From Thiotrichaceae bacterium (GTDB lineage: Bacteria; Pseudomonadota; Gammaproteobacteria; Beggiatoales; Beggiatoaceae), in assembly GCA_016745055.1 (NCBI GenBank), contig JADGDF010000033.1:1-33136 (forward strand): a stretch of 33,136 nt of DNA. The letters are read 5' to 3'. Both the position numbers and the translations under genes were made by a program. Positions within the stretch are counted from its first letter, which is position 1. Each line of letters opens with the position of its first letter. Positions 1,367-28,800 of this stretch are shown one piece after another. Under the pieces are notes generated by a model. The model saw only the letters and a program-made list of their open reading frames with translations. It did no database searches and had not been told where the DNA came from.

Positions 1367-2452
1367 TTATTTTTCTTGTTCTGCTGGATACTCTATGGGC
1401 TTAGCTGTTGTCCAGCCATCTCTTTTTGGTGCGTTATATGAGGTCCTCAAATCCACCCCTTCTGTTGAAACAGCTCTTGCCCCTCTATGTATTACACTTC
1501 TAACAACTGCTTTTCGTGGATGATGTTCGTCTTGTTTTGCTGCACTAATAATTGCAGTAAACTTTTCTTCACCTTCTACTAACTGTTGTTCAAGTTGTGG
1601 CCCCAACCAAGTATCAAGAATCTCAGTAGATACGTTGCGGCGTGATCCATGATGGGGCACTTGAAATCTATCAATGCCAGGCAACTGCAAACTAATGAAT
1701 GGCGCATATTTTGCTGCCTCACTTAGCCCTGATCGCCCCGCATCTCCGGTAAGTAGAATTTTTATCTTGCAAATGCTTGCGAATTGAACCACGCTCATCT
1801 CGTTCTCAGCACTAGTATCTTCGTTAGAAAAATTTTCTTCGCCCCAAAGAGCTTTCCATAGATACATCGCTTTTTGAACGGCAGCTTCAAATATTGAATT
1901 CAATGCGGCACGTTCCTTTTCTTTGGAGACTTCTGGAGTTTTCTCCGACTCAACCACCAAATCTAAATATCGCGACTTTTTTGGTGCCATGACTGTAAAT
2001 TCTCCAATTAGTGCACCTTGAAATGGCTCATAAATTGGAATTCTTTTATCGTTTGCGATTTTTTCTAATACATCAATATTAGGATATATCTCACGTAAAC
2101 GTGTAGCTAGGTTTTCGACTGATTTAAATCGAGAAAACCGATCAATCAACTCATCAGCATACAACCATGGCCTTAACATCCATAATTCACCAACATCAAA
2201 TTCTTCGAGTACTTTCCGTAACCCGCCTGCGTGATCTCCATCAGGATGAGTTACAACAACGCGATCTACCTTGACCGGGCTGTTGTAATATTTATTTATG
2301 TGTTCAACAACAGAATCCCCTGTATATTGAAAACCGCCATCAACAGCATGGATTGCTGTTTTACCAGCCACTTGATATCGAATTGTGATTGCGTCTCCGC
2401 TTTTTGAAGACTTTATATCAAGAAAATCAATTTCAAAGTAATCACTCATCAT
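1367..2452 (-). CDS. ComEC/Rec2-like metallo-beta-lactamase-fold hydrolase
   Basis: A 361-residue soluble protein with the metal-binding signature of the MBL superfamily: HPDGDH at residues 69–74 (HxDxDH type), LLTGDAG at about 234–239 supplying the bridging Asp, and PHHGS at about 266–270. This arrangement is that of the ComEC C-terminal MBL domain and of stand-alone ComEC-like hydrolases, thought to be phosphodiesterases or nucleases. A long insert (about 150–225) separates the first and second metal motifs. There is no signal peptide, so it is probably cytoplasmic. The start overlaps the end of the membrane-protein gene upstream by 11 bases. AGGGA just before the tandem ATG ATG serves either start. 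The substrate is unknown. Coupling to a membrane protein beside mobile DNA suggests a defence or conflict role, which is inference. Confidence 0.85.
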   Translation of the reverse strand: MMSDYFEIDFLDIKSSKSGDAITIRYQVAGKTAIHAVDGGFQYTGDSVVEHINKYYNSPVKVDRVVVTHPDGDHAGGLRKVLEEFDVGELWMLRPWLYADELIDRFSRFKSVENLATRLREIYPNIDVLEKIANDKRIPIYEPFQGALIGEFTVMAPKKSRYLDLVVESEKTPEVSKEKERAALNSIFEAAVQKAMYLWKALWGEENFSNEDTSAENEMSVVQFASICKIKILLTGDAGRSGLSEAAKYAPFISLQLPGIDRFQVPHHGSRRNVSTEILDTWLGPQLEQQLVEGEEKFTAIISAAKQDEHHPRKAVVRSVIHRGARAVSTEGVDLRTSYNAPKRDGWTTAKPIEYPAEQEK

Positions 2453-2954
2453 TACTTCCCTGTGACGATTTGATAGCGTGCTTTATTCGACTTACCACGT
2501 AGGAATTTTGCTTCCTGTAAGAGTAGACAAACCCCGTAAACAACAAGATTACAATTATTAGAGTTATGTTTTCACCCATAACTGGGAATCGATCACTTAG
2601 TAACTCGGTTACTTTTACTAGCAAAAGGGAAAGAAATGTTGCGACAAATGTACGGTAGGAGTTGTTCACTTCGGAAAGTGTTTTAATCTTATCATCTTTT
2701 TTAGACGCATCTATAAAATCGGAGTAAGGTGCAGTTTCGAGAAACCTTGCTTTTCGTAATAATGGCTCGACAACTAACGAACCAATCCGGCTAACCACCA
2801 GTCCCATGAAATAGTATAAAAAAAGACCAACAACGATATCTGACTGAAGAAACCTATAATTTGTTATCTCATCTGCCAAGATGGCAAACACCACTCCTGG
2901 TAACAAGTAGTTAAAAATATTGTAAGATGAAAGCTTGCTCAAAAACTCACTCAT
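2442..2954 (-). CDS. four-helix membrane protein, partner of the MBL hydrolase
   Basis: A 170-residue protein with two hydrophobic segments near the N-terminus (about residues 14–27 and 39–60), a charged central section (about 65–100, ETAPYSDFIDASKKDDKIK) and two more membrane spans (about 103–120 and 128–146). It ends in a basic then acidic tail. I recognise no named family with certainty. The stop overlaps the start of the MBL hydrolase gene by 11 bases, so the two are very probably translationally coupled and work together. A membrane-bound sensor or effector holding the hydrolase at the inner membrane is a reasonable inference. The region upstream (2955–3110) would hold the operon promoter. 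Confidence 0.8.
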   Translation of the reverse strand: MSEFLSKLSSYNIFNYLLPGVVFAILADEITNYRFLQSDIVVGLFLYYFMGLVVSRIGSLVVEPLLRKARFLETAPYSDFIDASKKDDKIKTLSEVNNSYRTFVATFLSLLLVKVTELLSDRFPVMGENITLIIVILLFTGFVYSYRKQNSYVVSRIKHAIKSSQGSNDE

Positions 2955-3207: not shown

Positions 3208-4626
3208 CTAGATAACTTCTCTTACATCAACAAACTTACCAGCAATTGCCGCTGCCGCCGCCATGATAGGGCTGACTAAATGAGTTCGTCCACCTTGACC
3301 TTGACGGCCTTCAAAATTACGGTTAGACGTTGAAGCACAACGATCGCCTGGAGATAAACGATCATCATTCATGGCCAAACACATTGAACAACCCGCATTG
3401 CGCCATTCAAAACCTGCATCTTTGAAGATTTTGTCCAATCCTTCTTTTTCAGCTTGAGTTTTAACCAAACCTGAGCCTGGGACAACCATCGCTAATTTAA
3501 TATTTGCTGCAATTTTTTTCCCTTTAAGGATGCCAGCGGCTGCGCGTAAATCTTCGATACGTGAATTGGTGCAAGAACCAATAAAAATTTTGTCAACTTC
3601 AATATCTGTAATGGCTGTTCCAGCGTTAACGCCCATGTAATCTAAAGCACGTTGAATACTACCGGCTTTGGTGGAATCACTAAAATCACTAGGATTGGGC
3701 GTTTTATCCTTAACAGATAAGACCAATTCTGGGGAAGTGCCCCAGGTGATTTGAGGTTCTAATTGGCTGGCATCAATAGAAACTACGTTGTCGAATTGTG
3801 CACCCTCATCACTGTGTAAATTGCGCCAGGCTTCAACGGCTTTATCCCATATTTCATTTTTGGGGGCGTAAGTACGACCTTTGAGATAGTTGATGGTGGT
3901 ATCGTCAACGCCAATCATGCCTGCTCTAGCACCAGCTTCAATGGCCATATTACACACAGTCATTCGGCCTTCCATTGATAACGCTTGAATTGTACTGCCA
4001 CCAAATTCAATCGCACAGCCCGTACCCCCAGCAGTACCAATCTTTCCAATCACAGCTAAAATAACATCCTTCGCTGTAATGCCTTTACCCAATTCCCCGT
4101 CAACTTTAATCAACATATTTTTGGATTTTTTCTGAATTAAGCACTGAGTGGCCAAGACATGCTCAACTTCAGAAGTCCCAATGCCAAAAGCAAGTGCACC
4201 AAATGCACCATGCGTTGAAGTATGAGAGTCCCCACACACAACCGTCATGCCAGGCAAAATAGCCCCTTGTTCAGGACCGGCAACATGAACAATCCCTTGG
4301 CGAATGTCTTGAATTGGAAACTCAGTAATGCCATGTTCTTGGCAATTTTTATCCAAAGTTTCTACTTGTAAACGTGCCATAGTGTCTTCAATGTCGGCTA
4401 ACCCGTTATCTCGCGCAGTAGTGGGTACGTTATGATCGGGCACACCAAGGTTGGCATTAATTCGCCAAGGTTGGCGGTTCGCCAAACGCAATCCTTCAAA
4501 AGCCTGTGGTGACGTGACCTCGTGTAATAAATGCCGGTCAATGTATAATAACGCAGCACCACTTTGTTCATCCACATGCACAGTATGCGCATCCCATAAT
4601 TTGTCATATAAGGTTTTTGCTGACAT
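3208..4626 (-). CDS. leuC: 3-isopropylmalate dehydratase large subunit
   Basis: The 472-residue product is the large subunit of isopropylmalate isomerase, which converts 2-isopropylmalate to 3-isopropylmalate in leucine synthesis with LeuD. Family hallmarks are [20 protein letters not shown], the cluster-ligand motif [14 protein letters not shown], and [20 protein letters not shown] carrying the other two 4Fe-4S cysteines, followed by [19 protein letters not shown]. Length matches the family (about 466–472). The start [11 protein letters not shown] is chosen because it is the conserved LeuC N-terminus and has AGGA eight bases upstream; an upstream in-frame ATG at 4668 would add an unrelated leader. 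Unusually, leuD does not follow: a long inverted repeat and an accessory operon occupy that position, so the small subunit must be encoded elsewhere. Confidence 0.97.
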
Positions 4627-4667
4627 ATAAATTTTCCTAAAAAAATGATTATCCTTGTTTAGTTGCA

Positions 4668-4673
4668 ATTATA
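4668..4673 (-). promoter_or_regulatory. -10 element of the leuC promoter
   Basis: On the minus strand the sequence reads TATAAT, a perfect sigma-70 -10 box, ending about 41 bases before the leuC start codon and implying a leader of roughly 35 bases. No strong TTGACA box is seen at the right distance. The pdxA promoter must lie in the same 97-base divergent gap. Confidence 0.45.
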
Positions 4674-4723
4674 CCATTTTTAATATACATCATTGCTTAT
4701 CATCTTTGAATTTGAGAACATTA

Positions 4724-5716
4724 ATGTCGACTATTGTACCAAAAATAGCCCTTACAGCAGGAGAACCTGCAGGAATAGGGGCTGATATTATTTTGCAATT
4801 AGCGCAACAAGCCTTACCTGCTCACCTTGTTGTGTTTGCAGCACCCGAGTTGTTAGCACAACGTGCGGAACAATTGAATATTCCAATTACATTAGAAGTG
4901 GCTGAAACTCATCAGATCCAGTTACACCAAGCGGGTAAACTTAAAATCATTCCCATTTCACTTGTCCAACCTGTAAAAACTGGGCAGCTCAATGTTGAAA
5001 ATGCAACGCACGTATTAACTATGTTAAAACGCGCTTGTCAGGCTTGCTTGGACAAAAAATTTGATGCTTTAGTTACTACACCCATTCATAAAGGAATTAT
5101 CAATGACGCAGGTTATCCGTTTACAGGACATACCGAATTTTTAGCACAACAAACAAAAACATCTCAAGTTGTCATGATGCTAGCTACTTCAAAGTTACGA
5201 GTAGCGTTGGTAACAACTCATTTACCTTTATCTCAAGTCAGTGCAGCAATTACGTTTAGAAGGCTAAAAACAAGTTTAGAGATTTTACATCAGGCGTTAC
5301 GCAGCAAATTTAGTATTGATCAGCCACATATTGCCGTGTGTGGTTTAAATCCTCATGCGGGGGAAGATGGCCATTTAGGTACTGAAGAAATAATAACAAT
5401 CATCCCCGTGCTTGATGAGTTACGACGAGCAGGTATGCGTTTAATTGGTCCACTCCCTGCAGATACCGCGTTTACACCTCAGAACCTCGCTGGTATGGAT
5501 GCAGTGTTAACCATGTATCATGATCAAGGGCTACCTGTACTCAAATCACAAGGTTTTGGAGAAGCGGTCAATATTACGTTAGGGTTGCCCATTATTCGCA
5601 CGTCAGTCGATCATGGCACAGCTTTAACACTGGCAGGAACGGGCCAAGCTAATACACATAGCCTACAAGCTGCACTCAATATGGCAATTGATATAGTAAA
5701 ACATAAGAAAAATTAA
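4724..5716 (+). CDS. pdxA: 4-hydroxythreonine-4-phosphate dehydrogenase
   Basis: The 330-residue product has the full length of PdxA (E. coli 329). PdxA oxidises 4-phosphohydroxy-L-threonine with NAD(P) in the DXP-dependent route to pyridoxal 5'-phosphate. Visible signatures are the N-terminal PKIALTAGEPAGIGADI, TTPIHKGIINDAG followed by FTGHTEFLA (metal-ligand His), GLNPHAGEDGHLGTEE (second His), MYHDQGLPVLKSQGF (third His) and TSVDHGTALTLAGTG. The start MSTIVPKIALTAGEP is chosen because it begins right at the conserved N-terminus; an earlier in-frame ATG lies inside the leuC promoter. The gene is divergent from leuC with 97 bases between start codons. In many gammaproteobacteria pdxA is next to ksgA or surA; neither is here. 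Confidence 0.96.
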   Translation: MSTIVPKIALTAGEPAGIGADIILQLAQQALPAHLVVFAAPELLAQRAEQLNIPITLEVAETHQIQLHQAGKLKIIPISLVQPVKTGQLNVENATHVLTMLKRACQACLDKKFDALVTTPIHKGIINDAGYPFTGHTEFLAQQTKTSQVVMMLATSKLRVALVTTHLPLSQVSAAITFRRLKTSLEILHQALRSKFSIDQPHIAVCGLNPHAGEDGHLGTEEIITIIPVLDELRRAGMRLIGPLPADTAFTPQNLAGMDAVLTMYHDQGLPVLKSQGFGEAVNITLGLPIIRTSVDHGTALTLAGTGQANTHSLQAALNMAIDIVKHKKN

Positions 5717-6071
5717 TATTATAAATATTAAGTTGTGGATATTTTGTTCAGATTTAGAATTTAACCTGATGGTGATCATCCCAATGCTGCTGAGATTAGC
5801 ATTATTTATGGTATGCTTGTTACTATTCCGCTTGGGAAAATGAGTATTTGAAATATTCCTTCATTGGACTAATTTTTACTTCCTTATGTAGCAACTTTAA
5901 TTAGAAAGGTTTCAAATTAAAAAAGGTGTCTTACTATGGCTAATATTACCAGGTTCTTATTATTAAAGAATGCAAGCAATATTTATCTAAACAATTGCAC
6001 AAAGTTTTAATGTACCCCATAATAATAAGAGGTCATTTTGTCTTTCAGTCTCACAAAAAAGGATAACGATT
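5717..6071. other. AT-rich intergenic stretch, no supported gene
   Basis: I see no convincing gene between pdxA and the small protein. A 20-codon frame starting at 5936 has a fair ribosome site (AAAAAAGGTG) but nothing else supports it. Frames near 5750–5850 contain a stop-broken stretch (PDGDHPNAAEISIIYG) that might be a decayed small gene; the evidence is too thin to name it. The promoter of the 65-residue gene should lie in the last 100 bases. Confidence 0.4.
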
Positions 6072-6269
6072 ATGACTGACTTAGAAGCATCTGTACTTTC
6101 TATTTTAAAAGATTTTGGGGGAGAATCTTCTGCTTTTTTAATTACAAATCCTGATAGTCCTTGGGGTAAATTAGGTGATGCTGACACACTGATGGCTGCA
6201 ATCAAGTCGTTAAAAGACCAAGGTGCAATTAATTATAATGAAGCAGATGATATTGTAAGCGTTGCTTAA
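6072..6269 (+). CDS. small hypothetical protein, 65 aa
   Basis: A compact acidic protein beginning MTDLEASVLSILKDFGGESS and ending ADDIVSVA. It has a good ribosome site (AAGGA, nine bases before ATG) and a strong terminator-like hairpin downstream, so it is very likely expressed as a single gene. The pattern of a short helix (LEASVLSILKDFG), a second helix (ADTLMAAIKSLKDQG) and a terminal strand (AINYNEADDIVSVA) is compatible with a small winged-helix fold, but I do not recognise the family. No signal peptide or membrane span. Confidence 0.7.
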   Translation: MTDLEASVLSILKDFGGESSAFLITNPDSPWGKLGDADTLMAAIKSLKDQGAINYNEADDIVSVA

Positions 6270-6348
6270 GGAAGTATTGGACCGTTTTAAGAGTTATTGT
6301 GCTTCATAAAGAATAAAAAGTAGGTGGGGAACATTTTAGCCCTATATT

Positions 6349-6386
6349 TTTTCCGCCTAAAGCGTTTCAATACTTTAGACGGAAAA
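6349..6386. terminator. bidirectional terminator
   Basis: TTTTCCGCCTAAAG (6349–6362) pairs with CTTTAGACGGAAAA (6373–6386), 13 of 14 positions, with a 10-base loop. A-rich and T-rich flanks lie on both sides. It sits between two convergent genes ending at 6269 and 6404 and would serve both. Confidence 0.7.
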
Positions 6387-6403
6387 GTAAATCAGCGTCT
6401 GAA

Positions 6404-6967
6404 TTACTGGTAAGAAGGGTCTTTCCTTTGATTATAAGTTTTGTATTTCACAGAGTACACATCCACCAGGGTAAAAGCACCCACATTTTTGATGTATAAG
6501 CTACTTCCCGTCATGGAAGCAGCAGATAAAGCATCAGCCACAGCCTCAACAAAGCTGTCCAAATTAATGTCATTTGTAGAAACATCAGCTAGCATAGTTT
6601 GCAACTCTTCTTGAGTCACATGTTCCATACTATTTGGCACCTTACCAAATTTCAATTTGTACCCATCAATCGTGCACTTATAGGTCATTCTATTATAATT
6701 TGCTTCACAGTCAGTGAGTGAAGGATTAAGATAAAAACCCACGACGACATTGACAGGTGAACTTACTGGTAATTCGGTGGGAATAGCTGCTTTATCTTCA
6801 AGTGAAACTGTTTCAATAACTTCCATTAAGGTCGCAATAAAAATTTCATGTGCTTCTGTGTTTCCAAAGTAATCATCCAAAAAGTCCTGGGAACCAATGT
6901 CATCTGCGGTTGCATAAGCGGTCATCAGGCACAATCCAATACAGAAAGTGAATAGTTTGACGTTCAT
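6404..6967 (-). CDS. secreted hypothetical protein
   Basis: A 187-residue protein with a clear Sec signal peptide (hydrophobic LFTFCIGLCLMTAYATA followed by a likely cut before DD). The mature part is acidic and mixed helix/strand, with two cysteines (in SLTDCEAN and YKCTIDGY) close enough to form a disulfide in the periplasm. I recognise no domain. Two start codons are possible, 6973 and 6967. GGGGA is only one base from the first but seven from the second, so the second (MNVKLF) is preferred. It is a single gene convergent with the 65-residue gene through a shared terminator. Confidence 0.75.
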   Translation of the reverse strand: MNVKLFTFCIGLCLMTAYATADDIGSQDFLDDYFGNTEAHEIFIATLMEVIETVSLEDKAAIPTELPVSSPVNVVVGFYLNPSLTDCEANYNRMTYKCTIDGYKLKFGKVPNSMEHVTQEELQTMLADVSTNDINLDSFVEAVADALSAASMTGSSLYIKNVGAFTLVDVYSVKYKTYNQRKDPSYQ

Positions 6968-7129
6968 TTTCATATCCCCATGATTTTATTTTGTCAGTTA
7001 AAGTATAGCGAATACCATGCCTAACTGCTACGTTTTTTATCATTAAAAAACTTACTTATTTTAGAGAATATGATTGAAACCAAAACCACTATGTACGGAA
7101 TTGATAAGTATTAGCTCATCTCAGGTTGG

Positions 7130-7148
7130 ACGGGGTTTATAACCCCGT
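7130..7148. repeat. short perfect hairpin in the 6974–7241 intergenic region
   Basis: ACGGGGTT (7130–7137) pairs perfectly with AACCCCGT (7141–7148) around a three-base loop. No T-run follows on either strand, so this is not a standard terminator. The flanks include ACGAGAAATTCCTC (7185–7198), which recurs inverted at 3186–3201. The stretch looks like repeat debris and has no gene. Confidence 0.5.
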
Positions 7149-7241
7149 TCATAACGTTTGAAAGCGGGTTACAAGATTGTCTCCACGAGAAATTCCTCAT
7201 GTTTTACCCACTGTATACGATTAATATCCAGGTGTTTTTTC

Positions 7242-9251
7242 TTATTGTGCTGCCTGCAATTTAGTCGTTTTTTGTTTACTACGGCTATTTTGTTTTTCTG
7301 CTTCTGCTTGTTGTTCTCTCAAATTATTAAGGGCTTCCGTCATCTCTTCAACCCAACCTGAGAACTCACTTTGTAAAATACGCTCAGTTTGGCCAACCAA
7401 TAAATCAACATTAGACTGCTTAGCCTGTTCTGGAGTAGATAAGGCAATCCACCAACTTCGGACATTAGATAAATCAATCGCCGCTTGATTGTATTTTTGC
7501 AGTGTCATTTCAACCTGGCGATATTCCAAATAAGTGGCAGTGGCAGTCACAATGGCAGTGGTTAGCGCAATCCATAGTTCTAATCCCAGTGCTGCCAATA
7601 AAGTGCCTAAGCCGCCAATCAAGTAAATTGCCCACTGCAACATGATTAAACCTCTTTCCAACTTGCGTGTTTTGCGAAGATAATAATTCATCTGATCTTC
7701 TAAGCGGGTAAACATATATCTATCTGCAGAAAGCGTTGAAATTCCATCATCATTACGCCCTAATTTTGGAGGGATTTTACCTTTATAAGCATGTAAAGCC
7801 ATAATATTGGCTTCTGTTTGCATGAGTTGATGGCCAATAGTTTGTAGTTTCCTAGCTAACTTCACTTCAGCCGTGTCTTCAACCGTTGTTTTTTGTGAGC
7901 TATAGTCTTCTGCTCTAGTGCGGTAGCGGAATATTTCTCGTTTGACTCCCTCAGCACTGGCTCGTAGCAATATCCATTTATTGCCCGCATTAAAACGGTT
8001 CGCCGCAGCAAGTAAAATTGAGACCAAAATGGGCACACACATAATCACATAACTCAGCATATTAATCAGGCTTTCCATATAGGGTTCTAGCCAAGTTTGA
8101 AATCCTCTCCAACCTGCTTCAATCATGGATAAAAATTGATTTATATCTGTATCTGAAGTTTGCTCATCCATTTGTGATGCTTTGTTTTCAGATTGGAGCT
8201 GTTGATTTTCTGCTTCTAATTGCATTATTTTTGTTTGATCTAAATACTGAGAAAAGGTCGTTTGTAATAATGCTAAAGCGGTTCCGATAATGCCCAATAA
8301 TAAAATAAACATCTGTAAGTTTAAAAAAGAACGTTGTTGCCTTCTCGCATTGGCATCATAAGTAGAAAATTGTTGCCACGCGAGTTTTAATACATGATCA
8401 CCGCTAATTTGTCGCTCAACCAATTTTTTAAGCTCATTCACTGAGCCTTCGATAGAAAATAAGTGAATGTTTCCATCAGCGATAATTTCGGCTAACTCAG
8501 GGTCTTCAATAAAATCAGGTTGTTCGCGATGTAATTGAGCAAGTTCATCTGCTAAACGTCCACTACCTTCAACGATAATAATGGGAATACCAGAGCGTAC
8601 GTTACTTAAAATTTCTTTTCGACACAATTCACCACCATTCACGAGGACCGTGACAGTAGGTACTTTCTTTTTGGCTAAAAAAGACACAAGACCATACATA
8701 ACTTGTGTTTCCCCCCCCCATTCATCACTATCGACCATTACAAAATGTGTATGGTGTGGCTCAAGTGAAACTAAATGTGTTTTTTCTTCTGGAGATCGTC
8801 CTTTAGATTCATCTGGATAAGTAGTGAGATGATTGGGTGCAATGCCAATTAGCGTACATTCTCTGCTTTGTTCGTAAACACCTCGACCTAGTAAAGCCAT
8901 CGTGCCATCATCAGTCCCGCCACTAATCAAGGTGGAATTTAATTCTCTGGCAGCTCTGGCAATGCCTCGACTAAATAATTGCGTTAAACGAGGTTCTAAA
9001 CTGCTATCAAGTCCAGAGGCGGCACCAGAAAGGACGATTAGCGATTCAGGCAATGCTAATTGCAAGTTATTCCAAACTTCTTCAGGATTTTCATTGGGTG
9101 AAGCTTCTATGGTATAAGCCGTATTCCCATTAGGAAATTCAATAATTTTACGTGTTTCAGCAGTGTCAATCGGTAATTCGGGCGATACAGTTGTTGTCGT
9201 TGAGTCAGTTGAATTCACGGATTTTGTTCCTCTACCAAACTTTAAAAACAT
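7242..9251 (-). CDS. SLOG (TRPM-type, LSDAT)–SLATT membrane protein
   Basis: A 669-residue protein. Residues about 65–285 form a SLOG-superfamily Rossmann-like domain of the kind shared with the N-terminus of TRPM channels (LSDAT): SGAASGLDSSLEPRLTQLF, the ligand-loop motif SGGTDDGTM at 110–118, THFVMVD, and PIIIVEGSGRLADEL. Then come a membrane segment (about 313–331), a coiled coil (about 340–362), a span at about 397–417 followed by NRFNAGNKWILLRASAEGVKREIFRYRTR, and a last two-span unit (about 538–557, 560–575) ending in a helical SNVRSWWIALSTPEQ tail. The last two blocks resemble SLATT/DUF4231 modules. SLOG domains are predicted nucleotide-derivative sensors and SLATT domains predicted membrane-damaging effectors, so a sensor–effector in one chain is likely. 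It is divergent from a helical protein, 127 bases away. Role in this organism is inferred. Confidence 0.85.
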   Translation of the reverse strand: MFLKFGRGTKSVNSTDSTTTTVSPELPIDTAETRKIIEFPNGNTAYTIEASPNENPEEVWNNLQLALPESLIVLSGAASGLDSSLEPRLTQLFSRGIARAARELNSTLISGGTDDGTMALLGRGVYEQSRECTLIGIAPNHLTTYPDESKGRSPEEKTHLVSLEPHHTHFVMVDSDEWGGETQVMYGLVSFLAKKKVPTVTVLVNGGELCRKEILSNVRSGIPIIIVEGSGRLADELAQLHREQPDFIEDPELAEIIADGNIHLFSIEGSVNELKKLVERQISGDHVLKLAWQQFSTYDANARRQQRSFLNLQMFILLLGIIGTALALLQTTFSQYLDQTKIMQLEAENQQLQSENKASQMDEQTSDTDINQFLSMIEAGWRGFQTWLEPYMESLINMLSYVIMCVPILVSILLAAANRFNAGNKWILLRASAEGVKREIFRYRTRAEDYSSQKTTVEDTAEVKLARKLQTIGHQLMQTEANIMALHAYKGKIPPKLGRNDDGISTLSADRYMFTRLEDQMNYYLRKTRKLERGLIMLQWAIYLIGGLGTLLAALGLELWIALTTAIVTATATYLEYRQVEMTLQKYNQAAIDLSNVRSWWIALSTPEQAKQSNVDLLVGQTERILQSEFSGWVEEMTEALNNLREQQAEAEKQNSRSKQKTTKLQAAQ

Positions 9252-12970: not shown

Positions 12971-13813
12971 ATGAAAGAATCGTTAGAAGTGCCGATAAAA
13001 TGTTTTGAGGAACTCCATGCAAAGTTATCAGAATTTCCTTTGCACGAAGAAAATGGACGTTGGCTTTTCCGTGGCCAAAGTAACGCTGCTTGGAATTTAC
13101 GCCCCCGAGTTGGACGCCCCCCCTACGATAAACTTTTTCAGAGGAATGAAAGCTTTAATGACTTAAACCTCCTCAAAAGTTGGAAACGTTATGCAGCTCA
13201 GTACATTGATCTTAGGGATTATTCTGAATGGGATTGTCTAGCTATTGCTCAACATCACGGATTAGCCACGCGCCTATTGGATTGGACAACCAACCCCTTA
13301 GTTGCAGCTTATTTTGCCTGCCAACCTCTCCCTGCTGAAGAGATTAAGAAAGAGCACGGTTCAGAAGTAGATGTTAAGCCAGATGCAGTAATTTTGTGTT
13401 TTTTTATGCAAAACAAGGAATGTGAGGAAGAAGAATATCGTATTACCTCTGAAACCTTAAGCTCTGAAGAAAATGTACGCCAGTACATTGAAAAGAAGAT
13501 GGAAAAAGAATTAATGTTTTATCTTCCTACAATCAGAATTCCAAGGATAAAACAGCAACAAGCTGTTCTAAGTGTTCATAAGATACCAACTCAACCTATT
13601 GTTGACTCCGATGACTCAAAGAGTAACGAGTATGTATTAAAAAAAATAACTATTGATGGGTCATGCCGGATTAAATTACTTAAGGAACTATCTTTTTATG
13701 GTGTTAATACTGAAATAATGTGCGCAAATTTAGATGGGTTATCTGAACATATTAATTGGTTAGAGGAAATGAATACAAGATTACCAGGTTCCTCATTAAC
13801 TACCTTTATTTAG
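12971..13813 (+). CDS. FRG-domain protein
   Basis: A 280-residue soluble protein with the FRG domain in residues about 25–120. The eponymous motif is WLFRGQSNAAWNLRPRVG, followed by DCLAIAQHHGLATRLLDWTTNPLVAAYFA, the most conserved block of the family. The C-terminal half (VILCFFMQ, FYLPTIRIPRIKQQQAVLSVH) is the usual FRG continuation. The biochemical activity of FRG proteins is not established to my knowledge; they often occur in variable genomic regions. AGGA precedes the ATG at good spacing. The kinase gene starts 86 bases after its stop on the same strand, so an operon is likely. Confidence 0.9.
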   Translation: MKESLEVPIKCFEELHAKLSEFPLHEENGRWLFRGQSNAAWNLRPRVGRPPYDKLFQRNESFNDLNLLKSWKRYAAQYIDLRDYSEWDCLAIAQHHGLATRLLDWTTNPLVAAYFACQPLPAEEIKKEHGSEVDVKPDAVILCFFMQNKECEEEEYRITSETLSSEENVRQYIEKKMEKELMFYLPTIRIPRIKQQQAVLSVHKIPTQPIVDSDDSKSNEYVLKKITIDGSCRIKLLKELSFYGVNTEIMCANLDGLSEHINWLEEMNTRLPGSSLTTFI

Positions 13814-13899
13814 ATTTTTATGGCTTCCTGACCTTTTAAATTGGTAATGAGTGTGGGTAGAGGTGTTTATATTGAGTGAAAAAAACTTAAGGTTTGCTT

Positions 13900-15099
13900 A
13901 TGAATAGTGATAACCCATTAAATCTTGATGAGGAATTAAAAAAACATCTACATTTAACAGATATTGAAAGAAAAAATCTCAAATCTCAATTGGAAATTGT
14001 CTGTGATGCTTTAAAAGAACAAAAGCAGTATACTGTTGAGCAATTGTGGAAAGTAGGAGGAATGGCCTTTATCTTAAAAGCACAAGATAATATGGTTCGT
14101 TCAGTTGCCATTAAAGTTCCTCGCAAAGATTCAGTGAGTCAAAATGGACTAGATGAGGTAATTGAGCGTTTTAAGAGAGAAGCTCAAATTACAGCTTCCT
14201 TGGGTAACAATAGAAATGTTGTCATAGTTTATGCGCATGACACACAAATACCGTTTCTAGCAATGGAATTTGTTGAAGGTGATTCTTTGGAGTTCGTATT
14301 AGACAAAATCAGAGAGCAAAAGCATTCAAAATTTGGCTTGGAAGAAATTATGAATCTAATGCACACCTTGCTGGAAATATTACAATATGCACATATGCAT
14401 GGTGTTATACATCGCGATGTGAAACCTTCCAATATCATGTTAACCTCTGATAATATTCTGAAGTTGACAGATTGGGGCATTTCTACAGGAAATGCTTATG
14501 AAAAGATGACCAGACTTGACCAACGTTTGGGAACCATCCAATATGCTTCTCCTGAGCAATTAAGACTCTTTGATAATGATGAAATTACTGCTAAAAGTGA
14601 CATCTTTTCTGCTGGGATGATATTGTACGAATTGCTCACAGGTACTCAACCTTTTGGTTCCATCAACGATTTAGGACAATATGCTATTCGGATGTACACT
14701 CAGAACTTTGAACTACCTTCCGAAGTTAATCCAAATATCCATAAAGCTTTTGATTATATTGTAAAAAAGGCCATTAACATAAAGCCAGATGAACGGTTTA
14801 CAAGTGCTGCTGAGTTTTCTTCAGTGTTAAAGCAAGCTAATGCAAACCCAGATGAATATTTATTGAATATAAAGCTTGAACAAAATACTAAAGTAACATC
14901 TACAGAAGGTAGTAACCTTGGGGAGGTAGTTAAACCCCCAAACAACTCCAATCCTCCCAAAAATGAGGAATTACCTTTCAATCCACCTGTAGAAACTCCA
15001 ACTAAAGATGACAATTATCCACTAGTGTGGATTATAGGGCTAGTAGTCATCGTCGTTTTACTAATTATAGTTTTGTTTTCAATGCCTTCCTCCAATTGA
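13900..15099 (+). CDS. membrane-anchored Ser/Thr protein kinase
   Basis: A 399-residue Hanks-type kinase. The N-terminal 48 residues are helical and charged. The kinase domain (about 48–315) has a glycine loop KVGGMAF, ATP-binding Lys in SVAIKVP (about 72), MEFVEGDSLEFVL hinge, catalytic HRDVKPSN (171–178), DWG in place of DFG (191–193), GTIQYASPEQ activation segment and TAKSDIFSAGMILYELLTG. A Pro/Asn-rich linker leads to one C-terminal membrane span (about residues 374–393) with only a few residues beyond, so the kinase faces the cytoplasm without an external sensor domain. The ATG at 13900 with AAGG eight bases upstream is preferred over an upstream TTG. The next gene starts 14 bases after the stop, so both are co-transcribed. 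Confidence 0.92.
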   Translation: MNSDNPLNLDEELKKHLHLTDIERKNLKSQLEIVCDALKEQKQYTVEQLWKVGGMAFILKAQDNMVRSVAIKVPRKDSVSQNGLDEVIERFKREAQITASLGNNRNVVIVYAHDTQIPFLAMEFVEGDSLEFVLDKIREQKHSKFGLEEIMNLMHTLLEILQYAHMHGVIHRDVKPSNIMLTSDNILKLTDWGISTGNAYEKMTRLDQRLGTIQYASPEQLRLFDNDEITAKSDIFSAGMILYELLTGTQPFGSINDLGQYAIRMYTQNFELPSEVNPNIHKAFDYIVKKAINIKPDERFTSAAEFSSVLKQANANPDEYLLNIKLEQNTKVTSTEGSNLGEVVKPPNNSNPPKNEELPFNPPVETPTKDDNYPLVWIIGLVVIVVLLIIVLFSMPSSN

Positions 15100-15113
15100 A
15101 AAGGAAAATACTC

Positions 15114-15947
15114 ATGCTTGAAACTTCCATTGAGACAAAAAAATTTTCAGAGATTACTCCTGCCAACATAATTTTGTTGATGCTGATTATCGGATTACTG
15201 ATGTTTCTGTCATTATATTTTCTTTGGATTCAGCCAAGCAACTTATTAAGGGACGCTGAAAGATTATTAATTGATAAGGATAATAATCCCGCAACACTTC
15301 TTAAATCTGAGTCGATAAAAAAACTAGACAATATATTCTTAAAACACAGTAAGAAAACACACCAAATTTCGTCAGCCGCACGGGAAATTGAAGCTGCCCA
15401 CAATTGGCAAGTTAGTTTTGAGAGGCTGAAAAATGCAAATTCACCTGAAGAAATAAGAAATGCAAAAGCGACATTGGACGAACAGCAAGCAAAACAAGTA
15501 CGTTTTTCTGAGGATATTCAGTCAATACAAGAAGCCTTAAGAGAAGTAGATCAAGCAAATATCTTCAATATGACTCCTACAAAAGTGACAGAGATACTAT
15601 CCCATATTGAGACTGATTCTATAGCAGAAACGGAACAATCAATCATTAGTACTACAATGGAATTTGCAAGAAAAGCTTACATTGATAAAAAATGGACAAC
15701 ACCTAATAATAATAATGCTGTTTTATGGGCAGAAAAAGTATTGAAACTAAACCATAGTCATGAGGGTGCAAAAAATATGATAATTACAATCATTAGTGAT
15801 TATCTAAGTTATAAAAGCTCTTGTGATCATATGTTAGACCGGGCGGGAAATCTTATAGGCAAAGGACATGGAACTCCACAACAGAAAAGTGAGTTTAATA
15901 CTGCTCGCAAAAAATGCAATGTAAATGAGGAGGGAACTAATCCATAG
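15114..15947 (+). CDS. single-pass membrane protein downstream of the kinase
   Basis: A 277-residue protein with a short cytoplasmic N-terminus, one strong membrane span (about residues 20–44, IILLMLIIGLLMFLSLYFLW) and a helical domain of about 230 residues outside. That domain is rich in charged helices (RLKNANSPEEIRNAKATLDE, SIQEALREVDQANIF) and resembles no family I know. AAGGA precedes the start at 15114; a longer frame begins inside the kinase gene and is not used. It has two or three late cysteines (SSCDHML, KKCNVN), possibly a periplasmic disulfide. The immediate operon position suggests it is the sensor or substrate of the kinase. Its last 11 bases overlap the convergent gene. Confidence 0.8.
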   Translation: MLETSIETKKFSEITPANIILLMLIIGLLMFLSLYFLWIQPSNLLRDAERLLIDKDNNPATLLKSESIKKLDNIFLKHSKKTHQISSAAREIEAAHNWQVSFERLKNANSPEEIRNAKATLDEQQAKQVRFSEDIQSIQEALREVDQANIFNMTPTKVTEILSHIETDSIAETEQSIISTTMEFARKAYIDKKWTTPNNNNAVLWAEKVLKLNHSHEGAKNMIITIISDYLSYKSSCDHMLDRAGNLIGKGHGTPQQKSEFNTARKKCNVNEEGTNP

Positions 15948-16911
15948 ATATTTCGGGTATTTCCCAATCCAAGTTATATTTGGCAAAAATTTCTCTTACT
16001 TTTTTTGACTGGATTTTTCTGATTGCAGTATCTAATTTGTTAAGTATTTTTTGGACATCCTTTTTGGTTTTTCGAATACCTATATAATACTGAATTGGTT
16101 TATGCCGACCTGCATAACGAACATCTTTGTACCATCCCTTTTTTCTAAGCAAGGTTTCTCCAAGATGTTTATTAGCATAAACTGCAACTTTTTTTGAATC
16201 TATTTTCACAAGGCTTTTGAAAGCTTCTTCATTGTCACTGGTTTCACCAATAGTAATAGGTATCTCTCTATTATTTTTCTCTAATCCTTTTAAGGATGTA
16301 TAAGTTCCAGATGGCCCATAAGCAAAAACTTGATAGCCTTTAATATCTTTTGGCTCTTTATATAACAAATCATTATCATTCTTTACAAAAAAACCATACT
16401 CTGTAAGAAGAATAACTGTTGATTTATAAAGCCACTTTTCCCGTCCGTCATTCCATGATATGACAAAAAGTCCATCTTCAGTGTTATCTTTAACTCTCTC
16501 TTGAGCTTCTTTCCACTCTTCAAATATTTTTATAGCACAATCTATTTCAGCTTCTAAACAAGCGAGTTTCACCAATTTAACTGCTGACCCATCTGGTTTA
16601 TCTTCATAGAAAACATCTTTAAATTGAAACGAGCCAAACTCTTGAGTATTTAATTTCAAAACTGGCCCTGACAAAATACGTTTCGTCTTACCCTTCCATT
16701 GGCCAGTGAGAGGCAAGCCTGCATCCCTTTGAAATTTGAACAAAGCAACTTTCATATTGCTGTCTATAACACCAGTTAGGTCACTTTTAGAACCATAATA
16801 CCCTCTTTCCTCCAGCTTTAATTGAACATCAAATATGCTTAGATCATCTGATATGGCAATGTTAGATAGTGATAACAAAAAAACAATGATGAGTGTTCTA
16901 ATTTGTATCAT
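15937..16911 (-). CDS. exported peptidoglycan-binding / solute-binding-like protein
   Basis: A 324-residue protein with a signal peptide (TLIIVFLLSLSNIAIS before DD). Residues about 25–85 form a PG_binding_1 domain (FDVQLKLEERGYYGSKSDL, VIDSNMKVALFKFQRDAGLP, TGQWKGKTKRIL). Residues about 90–315 look like a type-3 extracellular solute-binding domain: SAVKLVKLACLEAEIDCAIK, DGLFVISWNDGREKWLYKS, YGFFVKNDNDLLYKEPKDIKGYQVFAYGPSGTYTS. Such a receptor could dock on the cell wall and sense a small periplasmic ligand; no transporter genes accompany it. Convergent with, and overlapping by 11 bases, the membrane protein of the kinase operon. An Rpn-nuclease remnant ends two bases before its start codon. 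Confidence 0.82.
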   Translation of the reverse strand: MIQIRTLIIVFLLSLSNIAISDDLSIFDVQLKLEERGYYGSKSDLTGVIDSNMKVALFKFQRDAGLPLTGQWKGKTKRILSGPVLKLNTQEFGSFQFKDVFYEDKPDGSAVKLVKLACLEAEIDCAIKIFEEWKEAQERVKDNTEDGLFVISWNDGREKWLYKSTVILLTEYGFFVKNDNDLLYKEPKDIKGYQVFAYGPSGTYTSLKGLEKNNREIPITIGETSDNEEAFKSLVKIDSKKVAVYANKHLGETLLRKKGWYKDVRYAGRHKPIQYYIGIRKTKKDVQKILNKLDTAIRKIQSKKVREIFAKYNLDWEIPEISMD

Positions 16912-16913
16912 GT

Positions 16914-17249
16914 CTTATATCCTTCGTCCAATGTAGGCAGTTTTCAAATATCGTCTAATCAGTACTCTTCCCCTAATGGCTTCCTCAAGCAAATGCATTT
17001 GGGTATTTTTTTCCATGAGCGCTTCAAGGCGACTTTGATAAGTGTGTAATTTTGTTCATTTTCTAAGAAGTGCCGCATAATTCCCATAAATTATTGTTCG
17101 TTATAGGGATTTTTGATCGTGGACTCTGTAATTTGTGCTTCAGGCTCCAATATTGCGTTGAGAAAATGAATCAGTAAATTTTTATTCTCATCACTACCAA
17201 GAATAGCTTTAAAAACGCAGTCGGCTGTGGGATTAATCTTGTGTGTCAT
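16914..17249 (-). pseudogene. Rpn / PD-(D/E)XK nuclease-family transposase remnant
   Basis: From an ATG at 17249 the frame reads MTHKINPTADCVFKAILG and SDENKNLLIHFLNAILEPEA, then stops after NPYNEQ. This is the N-terminal signature of the PDDEXK_2/Rpn family. A further piece in shifted frames (HFLENEQNYTL, then RLEALMEKNTQMHLLEEAIR up to a TAA at about 16916) is the typical C-terminal helix. The middle, some 200 residues, is deleted. The ATG lies inside the end of the upstream binding-protein gene (17-base overlap). Confidence 0.7.
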
Positions 17250-18240
17250 GCGAAAGAACAATCAGTAATCGGTGAATCCAGCCTTGTTTATCAGGATCAT
17301 CAAGTGATTGTACCCATAGCCAATCACCTTGCGGCTTAAATTTTTCATCATCCACGACTTTTTTAACTTTTTTGCCTCTTTCCAAAACACTTAAGATTTT
17401 GGTATAAGCAGAAGGTTGTTCCCGTAAAGGAGCAATTGATACACGTATTTCAAACGGATATTGTTTTTTTTCAGCCGATTGCGAAGTACTGAAGGATGGC
17501 AACTTTTCTTGCAACGATTCAACAACTTGTTTTTTGTCCTCATCTGCCAAGCTGTTAAATTTTTCTTCTATTGTATTCATTACATGGATAGCTTTAAATT
17601 GGTGTTTTAGATTTTCTGCTGATAAACCCTTGGTATGTGTAGCTACTTTCAGGATAATTTTCATAGCGTCGTATATCATGAGTGTAGAGGCATTTGGTTT
17701 TGAACCATAGCGATCTTTATAACGTTCTCTCAACTTGGGATCATCAGCGTGTTTTGGTATCGAAAGAAGTTGAAACCCTTCTACGGTTTGATGTCGTTTT
17801 TGCAAATCGGGAGAAGGTTCAGCGGACTCAGGAAAGGGTACAATATGTAAAATTTTTTTATCAGAATTAATTTTCTTACCAACTTCTTTAGTACAAGGAT
17901 CGCCTGCTAATGTAAAGATTATTTGAGGTTTCTTTTCCGTAATTAATTCACTAGTCAAGTTAGCTGCAGTTTCACAATTTGAACCATGATCCCTGCTATA
18001 ATATTCCACTTGCTTTCTTTGAACTTCATCTTGTTCATTCATAGCCAAAAAGATAGCGTTTTCTCCACTTTTTGCTAAATTATCATATGCACCCGTAAAA
18101 GGTAAAATGATTCCCAGCTTTAACTCTTCCGCCAAAGCTTGTAGAGGTAAACTGCTTGCCAATAAGTACACACTCACAGTTAGTAGTAACATCGTGGTGA
18201 AAAATCCATTTGACTTTTGACTTTTCTGTACTTTTTTCAT
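17233..18240 (-). CDS. exported ABC-type ligand-binding (PBP type 1) protein with SH3b domain
   Basis: A 335-residue exported protein. After a basic N-terminus and signal sequence (MLLLTVSVYLLASSLPLQALA) comes a leucine/branched-chain-type periplasmic binding fold: LKLGIILPFTGAYDNLAKSG, ETAANLTSELITEKKPQIIF, then RYKDRYGSKPNASTLMIYDAM. The usual central 100 or so residues between these parts are missing, so the ligand cleft is shortened. Residues about 255–325 form an SH3b-like domain (VSIAPLREQPSAYTKILSVLERGKKV, WLWVQSL, GWIHRLLI), which often binds peptidoglycan. The start at 18240 (MKKVQKSQ) gives a normal signal peptide; ATGs at 18258 and 18276 are alternatives. No permease is nearby. Together with the neighbour at 15937 it makes a second binding domain joined to a putative wall-binding module. 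Confidence 0.8.
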   Translation of the reverse strand: MKKVQKSQKSNGFFTTMLLLTVSVYLLASSLPLQALAEELKLGIILPFTGAYDNLAKSGENAIFLAMNEQDEVQRKQVEYYSRDHGSNCETAANLTSELITEKKPQIIFTLAGDPCTKEVGKKINSDKKILHIVPFPESAEPSPDLQKRHQTVEGFQLLSIPKHADDPKLRERYKDRYGSKPNASTLMIYDAMKIILKVATHTKGLSAENLKHQFKAIHVMNTIEEKFNSLADEDKKQVVESLQEKLPSFSTSQSAEKKQYPFEIRVSIAPLREQPSAYTKILSVLERGKKVKKVVDDEKFKPQGDWLWVQSLDDPDKQGWIHRLLIVLSHDTQD

Positions 18241-18370
18241 AAACACTTTCTCGCTCATTACTTTGAAAATTAACATCTTACGTCAGTTAGATTGTAACTA
18301 ATGACAAGAGAATAACATTAGTATATCATGATAATTTCTCTTACTTCAAAAACATTTTGGACAAAAGAAA

Positions 18371-24755: not shown

Positions 24756-25880
24756 CTAAGTTTTGAGTATTTCCATATTTTTGCTAACAACACAATTTCT
24801 ACCCAATGCCTTTGCTTGATACAAAGCATCGTCCGCCTGCGCAATTAATACTGTCGGAAAATGCTTTTGCTCAGGAATCGTAGTGGCAACACCTATGCTG
24901 AGCGAAATATACTGATTGGCACGAGAACGTTTATGGGTAATTTTTAATTCACCTATATGTTGTTTTATCGCATTTGCAATGTGTAAAGCTTCTTTTTTAT
25001 CTATATAGGGTAATACTATAATAAATTCTTCACCCCCATAACGCGCAATTAAATGCTCAGTTCGGTGATATGTGGTAACAGCATCTACAATTCCCTGCAC
25101 TACTTGCTTTAAACAATCATCACCTGCTTGATGCCCGTAACAGTCATTATAATTTTTAAAATAATCAATATCGCACAAAATAATAGACAGTGGATGATGT
25201 TCATTGACAAGTTGCTGCCATATGTTTGGCAAGTAAATGTCTAAACAACGCCGATTCGCAACTTGAGTTAAACCATCCAAATTTGCTAATCGTTTTAGCT
25301 CCTTATTTGCCCGACGTAATGCAATTTCCACTTGACGACGACTTTGAACTTCTTGCTGTAATTTTGCATTTAAAGATTCTAATTCATGCGTCCGTTGTTC
25401 TAATAAACTTGCAGATTTTTCTAAGGAATTTTGAGTATGCTTATGCTGCTCAACTTCAACTTGCAACTCTGCATTTTGTGATTCAAGTTTTAACTGCAAA
25501 CGACGTAAATTTAAATGCGTTTTAATACGCGCCAACACTTCCTCATGCTGAAAAGGTTTAGTGATATAATCAGCCGCTCCCAGACTAAATCCCTTAATCT
25601 TTTCTTCGGTATCAGCTAAGGCAGTCATAAAAATAACAGGAATATCTCTAGTTTCTGTCTCAGATTTTAAAATTTCACAAGTTTCAAAACCATTCATATC
25701 AGGCATCATAATGTCTAATAAAATAAGTTCAGGTTTACCATATTTTACCGTTTGAATGGCTTGCCGCCCTCCTTGAGCAATCAAAACCTTAAAACCTGAC
25801 ATACCCAAAAAATCAAGTAATACCATAATATTTTCGGGCATATCATCAACAATCAATAATGTGCCTGCCGTGGCTTTCAT
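24756..25880 (-). CDS. response regulator with diguanylate cyclase (REC–GGDEF)
   Basis: A 374-residue cytoplasmic protein. The receiver (about 6–122) has the acidic pair VDDMP and phospho-acceptor Asp in LILLDIMMPDMNGFE, and ends with the conserved Lys in DYITKPF. A coiled coil (about 125–200) leads to the GGDEF domain, which has DGLTQVANRR, DIDYFKNYNDCYGHQAGDD and the active site RYGGEEF, so it should make cyclic di-GMP. The inhibitory I-site position reads RTEH rather than RxxD, hinting at weak product inhibition. Its ATG overlaps the TGA of the hybrid kinase gene (ATGA), implying translational coupling and a shared pathway. Confidence 0.95.
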   Translation of the reverse strand: MKATAGTLLIVDDMPENIMVLLDFLGMSGFKVLIAQGGRQAIQTVKYGKPELILLDIMMPDMNGFETCEILKSETETRDIPVIFMTALADTEEKIKGFSLGAADYITKPFQHEEVLARIKTHLNLRRLQLKLESQNAELQVEVEQHKHTQNSLEKSASLLEQRTHELESLNAKLQQEVQSRRQVEIALRRANKELKRLANLDGLTQVANRRCLDIYLPNIWQQLVNEHHPLSIILCDIDYFKNYNDCYGHQAGDDCLKQVVQGIVDAVTTYHRTEHLIARYGGEEFIIVLPYIDKKEALHIANAIKQHIGELKITHKRSRANQYISLSIGVATTIPEQKHFPTVLIAQADDALYQAKALGRNCVVSKNMEILKT

Positions 25881-28800
25881 GACGAACTATCCATATAAGG
25901 TTTAACTAGATTAACTATATCATCCATACGCAACTCGTTGGCTAACTTATGAATTTTTTGGCAGAATGGCGCGGCTGTTGTTTCCTGTTGTTCAAATACT
26001 TCAATCGCTTCTAATATACCATTAATATCGCCTTGCATGGCTAAATCCCATAAGTTGGCTGCCATATCTGCAGGTAACTTCTCCCAGTCCTGTGATACCA
26101 ACTCCTGAGTAATAATTTCCTCTATTACCAAAGGTTGTTCGTAGGTCCACACTAAGCCTAATTGTTCTTCTAAACAACTCAAAAGGTGTGCTGTATTAAC
26201 GGGTTTAGACAAAAAACATAATTTATGTGTAGGTATATTATAAAAAATACTTTCAGATTCAAGTTTTGCACCATATTCTGAGAACTCACTGGCAGACATT
26301 GCAACAATGGGTATTGAATCTAACAGTGTTTGTTGACGTACTTGACGAATTGTTTCAAAACCATCCATCACTGGCATGACTAAATCTGTCAAAATCAAAT
26401 TTGGTTCATACTCCCGAGCTTTAATCACACCTTCTCGACCATCTATTGCTTCAATCACGTTGAAATCCAATGGCAAAAGTAAATTTCGCAAAATATCTCG
26501 CGTACCCTTTTCATCATCAATCACCAAAATCGTTTTAGGTTGACCTTCATAACCTATAATGACTTTGTCTTTTTCTTGAGTAGGTAAAAAATCGCTCATT
26601 ACTTGAACCAATTTCACAGAGACTTGAAAGGTACTGCCTTTACCAACGTCACTTTGCACATTAATATTTCCTTGCATTAGGTTAACGACATGTTGAACAA
26701 TTGATAAACCTAAACCAATGCCTTGAGAATACAGTCGCGTTTTTCCTGCTTGAGTAAAAGGCTCAAAAATTTTTTGTTGCACTATTTCAGACATACCAAT
26801 CCCAGTATCTTGCACTTCTAAATTCAGCGTACCTTCAGCATAGTGGGTTCTAAAAATAATACCGCCATGCTCAGTAAATTTAATGGCATTACTGAGTAAG
26901 TTGGTTACAACTTGACGCAGTCGTTTTTCATCACCATTGACCATCGTCGGCAGAACTGATAAATTTTGGTGGGTAAAACTTAATTTCTTTTCGTGGGCGC
27001 GAATGGTAAATAGTGCTGCCAACTCATCCATAAATTTTGGCAGACAAAAATCACTGGCATAAAGTTCGAGTTGTTCAGCTTCTAGCTTTGATAATTCCAA
27101 AATATCATTTAGTAAAGTTAATAAGTAATAGCCATTTTTTTCTATTGCCTGGGCATTTTTCTGATGTGTGGTTTGTAAGTTTTTGTCATGAGTCAGCATT
27201 TGTGTATACCCCAATATGCCATTTAGAGGCGTGCGTAATTCGTGACTCATGCTAGCTAGAAAGGTACTCTTGGCCCGATTTGCGGCTTCAGAAGCATGTC
27301 GAGCTTGTTCGTTATCAGCAAATAGATTGGCATTTTGTATTGAAATGGCCATTTGTGTTGAGAGTAAACGTAGTAAGGAGATATGTCTGTCTGTGAATGC
27401 ATCTGTTGTTAGGTTATTTTCTAAGTAGACAATGCCAACGACTTGTTGTTGGTATAACATGGGTAGGCAGCAGACTGATTTTGGTTGATGGGTAATTATA
27501 TAGGCATCATGGACAAAAGTATCTGCTTGACTGGCATCACTTAATACTAATTCTTGTTTGGTGATTGCAACGTAGTTAATCATGCTTGTGGGTACAGCAT
27601 TTTCATTTGTTTGATGAGTGTCTAGCGTGGTTTGATCAAGTAGTTGAATTTGCGCCCCTGCAGTTGTCATATTTGCTTCTGCGACGAGGGTGTAATTACC
27701 TGACTTTTCTAAAACGAGTAGGCCAGTTTCTGCCCCTGCATTTTCCATGACTGTCCACAGTAGTTTTTTTATCAGGTGCTCTAGCATAATTTCTTCTGAA
27801 ATTGCTTGAGAGGCTTTGAGTACGGAGGCTAAATCTAGTTCGTCACCATGATGTTGAATAGTTGCCTGCATATAAGTGGCATTGGAAGAAATGGTTTTTT
27901 GTATTGTTACATATTCATGGTACCGAGTTTCTAGGTCATTAATTTTCTGGGTAGCACCCCAAAGTTTATAGTGGTAGTCAGCTTCTTTGAAATAAATGGC
28001 TGCAATTTTTTCTTTACCCTGAGATAGCCAGCTTTGAGCTGCGAGTTCATTTGCTAAAGCAACATGTTGAGTAAAATTATGTTGTTTGGCTTCTTCAATG
28101 GCTTGATCGTATAAATTGAGTATGATGTCAAAAGACTGTTGAGTCAATTGTGCCATTTGTGCTTGGATTAGTACGTATTGATGACTAAAATTGGCAGGAC
28201 TGGCTTTGGCCCAAATAGCCATTTGGGTTTGGTTGCGCTCAAGTTGTTGCCAGAGTTCAGTTTGGTTTTTGGCGTCAGGATAGAGAGCTATGAGTACGAG
28301 TGAATGCGTAAAATTATATGCAGCAGCAGGGTATAGACCTTGAGTCGCTACGGCAATGAGGTTGGCATTCGCAGATTCAAGTGTATTTAAGGCTTGAGTG
28401 TATTGCCCATGTAGGTAATAGACGAAGCTAGAAAGTATGTGATAGATGCAAATGACTTGGGGATTTTTGTGTTGTTCGCAATCTGCTAGGTATTGTTTGA
28501 CTGCTTGTGCTTTATCTGCAAGTGGTTGTTGTAACTGGGTAATAATGAGTAATCCACCTTCTAGCAGGTCTATTGCCCATTGATTACCACGGCTACGACT
28601 GAAGGCTTGGGAGTGAGTGATTTCTTCTGTTAAGGTAGATAGAGGGATACCTTGGTAAAAGCGACAATACATGTTGTGACCAAAGGCATAGGCGGAATAT
28701 TGTAGGTTGCCGGATTCTAGTCCTACATGGTAGGCTTGTTGATAGTCTTGTGAGGCAACGCTTAGATGTTGTGACCAAGCTTGTACTGAACTGCCTATCA

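Follow-up and report, generated by a model that had tools for sequence, protein, structure and literature searches.

The Ser/Thr kinase gene at 13900-15099 (+) and the single-pass membrane protein gene that follows it at 15114-15947 (+) most probably specify a receptor kinase split over two proteins, a minor departure from an architecture that is widespread. With a probability of roughly 0.6, each of the two genes supplies one half of a single envelope-sensing receptor kinase, and the FRG-domain gene upstream of them (12971-13813, +) is an independent defence gene of the ADP-ribosyltransferase (ART)-like type.

Architecture of the locus

The window analysed here (33,136 bases) is the complete contig C27 from a draft genome of 4.65 Mb. 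The FRG, kinase and membrane protein ORFs are all co-oriented and together span 12971-15947, in agreement with the original prediction of three tightly spaced genes; its figure of 14 bases between the kinase gene and the membrane protein gene (hereafter the third gene) is also right, and an AAAGGA site precedes the third gene. The best start of the kinase is ATG 13900, with TTG 13894 as an alternative. In the gap of 86 bases between the FRG and kinase genes (13814-13899, +) no terminator-like site was found, and promoter-like sites there showed no excess over shuffled sequence. Judged by these signals, a single transcript for the co-oriented genes is possible. The last 11 bases of the third gene overlap with the stop of a convergent gene (15937-16911, -), and the co-oriented set therefore ends at the third gene. 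A search of the window against Rfam returned no match. Mobile DNA had also been noted nearby; the IS5-type pieces are real, but they are located at the two contig ends (366-929, 32247-32672 and 32804-33136).

A membrane-anchored kinase without an outer domain

The kinase (399 aa) matches PF00069 with 140 bits (E 1.2e-40), and its translation contains the catalytic motifs VAIK, HRDVKPSN and DWG; with a Pkinase domain and the catalytic Lys, HRD Asp and DxG Asp all present, it is a Hanks-type Ser/Thr kinase. Among solved structures it is closest to PknB-type kinase domains (3orm, E 3e-34), and it resembles the PknB/Stk1 kinases in its catalytic domain (residues ~41-315). Those kinases carry PASTA domains whereas the window kinase does not: it scores 240.7 bits where the PASTA receptor kinase model NF033483 requires 450, and no PASTA match was obtained. 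Instead, a Pro-rich linker connects the catalytic domain to a single hydrophobic helix at residues ~372-393, after which the ORF ends within six residues, leaving no outer domain. This is the C-terminal anchor lacking an external sensor that had been proposed from the first reading of the DNA.

The replacement of DFG by DWG, likewise proposed, is present in the translation and is uncommon, occurring in one of the 16 kinase motifs compared. DWG is also found in CK2 alpha and in the orthologues and paralogues known for it, which are constitutively active (PMC5374413), and by analogy with this active eukaryotic kinase, to which the window kinase has no closer kinship, DWG is compatible with activity. 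The PADLOC profile PD-T4-6 matches the window kinase with an E value of 2.8e-66; we rejected this match as evidence for a defence role because it is unspecific, the same profiles matching an ordinary TPR receptor kinase of the same genome (E 1e-47).

An outer repeat shared with receptor kinases

The third protein (277 aa, starting at ATG 15114) has one membrane helix at residues ~18-38 with lysines ahead of it, and these N-terminal positive charges predict an N-in/C-out topology. The outer region is helical and ends in a TPR-like repeat with the motif TTPxxNNA at residues ~175-252 (coding DNA 15639-15866, +). No Pfam family was found for the protein, matches to Phage_lysozyme2, PbeC and MAG1140 all being below threshold, and a sequence search against solved structures gave no useful relative. 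Its structure model is poor (pLDDT 63), and the weak helical-repeat and TPR matches that Foldseek returns derive from this poor model. No full-length homologue was identified in 57 relatives, in 369 genomes of the class or in plasmids; only the repeat is shared, with residues 173-235 giving weak matches to other proteins.

A profile built from an alignment of nine TTPxxNNA repeats matches the third protein with an E value of 1.3e-26, although this profile includes the third-protein sequence itself. We therefore relied on a non-circular test, in which only single-chain kinase receptors contributed to the repeat model and the window protein was left out. This model still matched the third protein (domain E 2.1e-4, 21.6 bits), whereas none of 5000 shuffled copies scored above 13.7 bits. 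Searched for with the nine-repeat alignment, TPR-like repeats of this kind are near-universal in the family (41 of 42 genomes) and occur in roughly one in four of the gammaproteobacterial genomes sampled (73 of 274). About 19-20 of the 62 repeat ORFs that were read have a kinase domain upstream of the repeat, and nearly all of these have a membrane helix between the two. Examples of such single-chain receptors have 480-510 aa, with the kinase at 14-248, the helix at ~302 and the repeat at ~373-451; one in genome G086 has a single copy after the kinase domain and helix. Searches of the genome that holds the window show two single-chain repeat kinases of its own: L350, which has 813 aa and four repeats, and L351, which has 991 aa. 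Pfam detects TPR in the repeats of L350.

TPR-like repeats are also present in proteins that have no kinase domain. One protein of the same genome has up to five tandem TTPxxNNA copies after a membrane helix, and proteins that cross the membrane once and bear three to five tandem copies are widespread in the family (L038/L341 on the own-genome contig C269, and L146-L171). Pfam barely detects them. The own-genome gene adjoins a nuoD-like gene, and others adjoin an rpoD-like gene.

Two genes in the order of one receptor

The order of parts in the single-chain TTPxxNNA receptor kinases (L127, L128 and L137, as well as the own-genome L350 and L351) is kinase, membrane helix, repeat, and the same order runs across the two adjacent window ORFs, indicating that the window holds a two-gene version of the usual receptor. 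The differences are that the single-chain receptors are one polypeptide with one helix and DFG, whereas the window pair comprises two genes with a helix in each, and DWG. The suggestion that the third gene could supply the missing sensor is thus borne out to the extent that its C-terminal TPR-like repeat is the outer repeat of single-chain receptor kinases.

We weighed this reading against two others. The kinase and third protein might be unrelated neighbours, so that the locus would comprise an FRG gene, a kinase that needs only its anchor and a stand-alone TPR-like envelope protein. Kinase-free TPR-like single-pass proteins are indeed common in the family, some of them next to house-keeping genes. 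We nevertheless consider this explanation unlikely, given the 14-base gap, the matching topology of the kinase and third protein, and the fact that kinase-helix-repeat is the standard order in other receptors, two of them in the same genome. A single receptor gene could also have been broken by a frame-shift, either real or derived from the assembly; the shared order of parts and the different reading frames of the two ORFs would agree with this. Against this, either half begins at a start codon of its own and comes with a separate ribosome-binding site and membrane helix, which makes an artefact unlikely. Moreover, joining the halves would produce tandem helices that return the repeat to the cytoplasm, unlike the single-helix homologues. 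A broken gene is therefore very improbable.

The split receptor kinase remains the reading that we favour. In tree tests of its ancestry, grouping of the window kinase domain with the single-repeat receptor kinases was not rejected (p-AU 0.264, on a long branch), and grouping with the multi-repeat kinases of the same genome was rejected (p-AU 3e-6). The domain does not fall among the repeat-bearing kinases, so that fission of a known receptor is at most a possible origin of the pair. Among 20 further repeat-ORF loci, most of them with short ORFs, there was no second two-gene kinase/repeat arrangement and no adjoining kinase gene.

Given this architecture, the kinase gene would produce a cytoplasmic PknB-like kinase with a membrane anchor, and the third gene a separately anchored outer part ending in the TPR-like repeat, with the two halves pairing through their membrane helices. 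Binding of a ligand or partner at the periplasmic TPR region could then bring kinases together, whereupon trans-phosphorylation would switch them on and lead to phosphorylation of cytoplasmic targets. If two membrane proteins do form one receptor in this manner, a TPR sensor and a kinase can act in trans, and the split receptor would provide a simple genetic handle on how outer TPR-like repeats switch a kinase.

An FRG protein with a proposed ART-like fold

The FRG protein (280 aa) matches PF08867 with 87 bits against a cut-off of 25 (E 1.6e-24) and the PADLOC candidate defence family PDC-S15 (1e-58), and conserves the FRG...QHHG..TRLLDW...R..Q motifs. It keeps R34, G35, H95, G97, T100, R101, D104, F115 and Q196, the invariant positions in 75 FRG proteins; since all of these residues are kept, the protein is probably active. 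The original prediction regarded the activity of FRG as unknown, a view overtaken by a published proposal (PMC9503650) that Frg belongs to the ADP-ribosyltransferase superfamily and may serve prokaryotic immunity as an NADase; our model agrees with this placement. This AlphaFold2 model, built with 74 homologues, has a pLDDT of 87 and a pTM of 0.87. In structural comparison, ART-superfamily enzymes account for nearly all of its top matches (best Z 5.8 over 119 residues, 3.2 A), including toxins of RES-type toxin-antitoxin pairs and PARP-type enzymes. Foldseek gave no significant match (none with E <= 0.001), and a sequence search against solved structures found no useful relative. With Z below 8 and Foldseek non-significant, the model supports an ART-like fold but falls short of proof. 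The window protein has in common with the FRG/PDC-S15 ART clade (PMC9503650) its Pfam and PADLOC matches, the invariant residues and an ART-like model, and when triggered it would probably modify a target with NAD+, or consume NAD+. The defence role suggested for the whole locus is plausible for FRG alone; for the kinase, the PADLOC match is unspecific.

FRG genes change their company

We examined 205 other FRG loci for the company of the FRG gene: 45 from gammaproteobacterial genomes and plasmids (38 from 369 gammaproteobacterial genomes, four from the family and three from plasmids), 80 on viral contigs, and 80 from genomes of many phyla, whose FRG proteins were the closest in a set of 84,980 species. 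Scanning genome contigs with a single FRG sequence as query gave no match, and an alignment query succeeded. A kinase lies within ~7 kb of FRG in four of the 205 loci, in four different architectures, and none of the 205 has a relative of the third gene. The gammaproteobacterial set contributes one kinase, at a locus of the same family (L040), and none in the 38-locus class sample; the 80 viral contigs have none. Among the 80 genomes of many phyla there are three, of which only that of Paraburkholderia (L266) is co-oriented and directly downstream of FRG, and this kinase has no membrane helix. By chance, at least 0.56 kinases would be expected in the class sample, where none was seen, and at least 1.1 in the 80-genome set, where three were seen; both expectations are lower bounds because the kinase densities behind them count no more than six kinases per genome. 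Co-occurrence of FRG with kinases is therefore about what kinase density predicts, and the link is not conserved. Directly beside no other FRG gene that we read is there a receptor-type kinase, as there is in the window.

The L040 locus (3588-8308, genome G032) has FRG directly behind a TerY-P-like cluster, whose genes encode a divergent kinase, a VWA protein and a PP2C phosphatase. It resembles the window in having FRG beside a kinase, and differs from it in the divergent kinase, VWA and phosphatase genes and in lacking the TPR membrane protein.

Other neighbours were found in these FRG loci. A small protein with PF18166, a predicted pPIWI-associating nuclease domain, accounts for six of 119 FRG neighbours, and there is one match each to the DarT, DarG, PtuB, ThsB, SoFic and MADS families; a Shewanella plasmid has type I restriction genes near FRG. 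FRG is thus a mobile defence-type gene with changing company, and in the window it is most likely independent of the kinase pair. Because FRG genes change neighbours, the strand that FRG shares with the kinase is no evidence for a joint system. Its upstream position could have arisen through gene shuffling, such that it may share a transcript with the kinase pair and not a pathway.

The first reading of this DNA had instead joined all three genes in one module, and we rejected such a module for want of conservation across the 205 other FRG loci, an outcome that the first reading had itself named as refuting it. In its fullest form, a split receptor would detect phage attack or another event at the envelope, and its kinase would activate FRG by phosphorylating it, leading to NAD+ loss or ADP-ribosylation and growth arrest. 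The same strand and the terminator-free 86-base gap fit this proposal, as do the defence-type, ART-like nature of the FRG family, the kinases near FRG in L266 (directly downstream) and L040 (FRG behind the TerY-P-like cluster), and the candidate defence genes PDC-M48A/B elsewhere in the window. The four kinase-bearing loci of 205, all of different architecture and without the third gene, and the chance expectations of at least ~0.6 (none seen) and at least 1.1 (three seen) tell against it, and we hold it to be quite improbable. Slightly less credible again is the idea of a defence or stress module, phospho-switched and NAD+-dependent, in which sensor, kinase and effector have separate genes and an ART-like FRG effector is under the control of a split envelope-receptor kinase from the same operon.

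Further arrangements were seen among FRG loci in passing. The PF18166 neighbour recurs with FRG more than any kinase does. A gene of ~110-135 aa often comes directly after FRG in alphaproteobacteria (FRG loci L294, L290, L287, L297, L301, L296, L308, L276 and L275). Two tandem FRG genes with overlapping ends occupy 6905-8601 of L106 (genome G057).

Other genes in the window

A candidate two-gene defence system, PDC-M48A/PDC-M48B, was identified by PADLOC at 1367-2954 (-); one gene encodes an MBL-fold protein (E 2.7e-166), the other a small membrane protein (1.1e-62). At 7242-9251 (-) lies a 669-aa protein with domain matches to a TRPM-like SLOG (LSDAT) domain and two SLATT-type membrane regions, an architecture proposed for nucleotide-signal-gated effectors. 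The convergent gene that overlaps the third gene (15937-16911, -) encodes a PG_binding_1 and SBP_bac_3 protein, and the next convergent gene (17233-18276, -) a Peripla_BP_6 and SH3 protein; from their periplasmic binding domains, both could be envelope sensors. A 1971-aa hybrid at 25877-31792 (-) has an N-terminal kinase domain, with histidine-kinase and receiver-like parts at its end, and is adjoined by a response regulator/GGDEF-like gene (24756-25880). Several very large kinase ORFs of the genome (~1740-1920 aa) resemble this hybrid.
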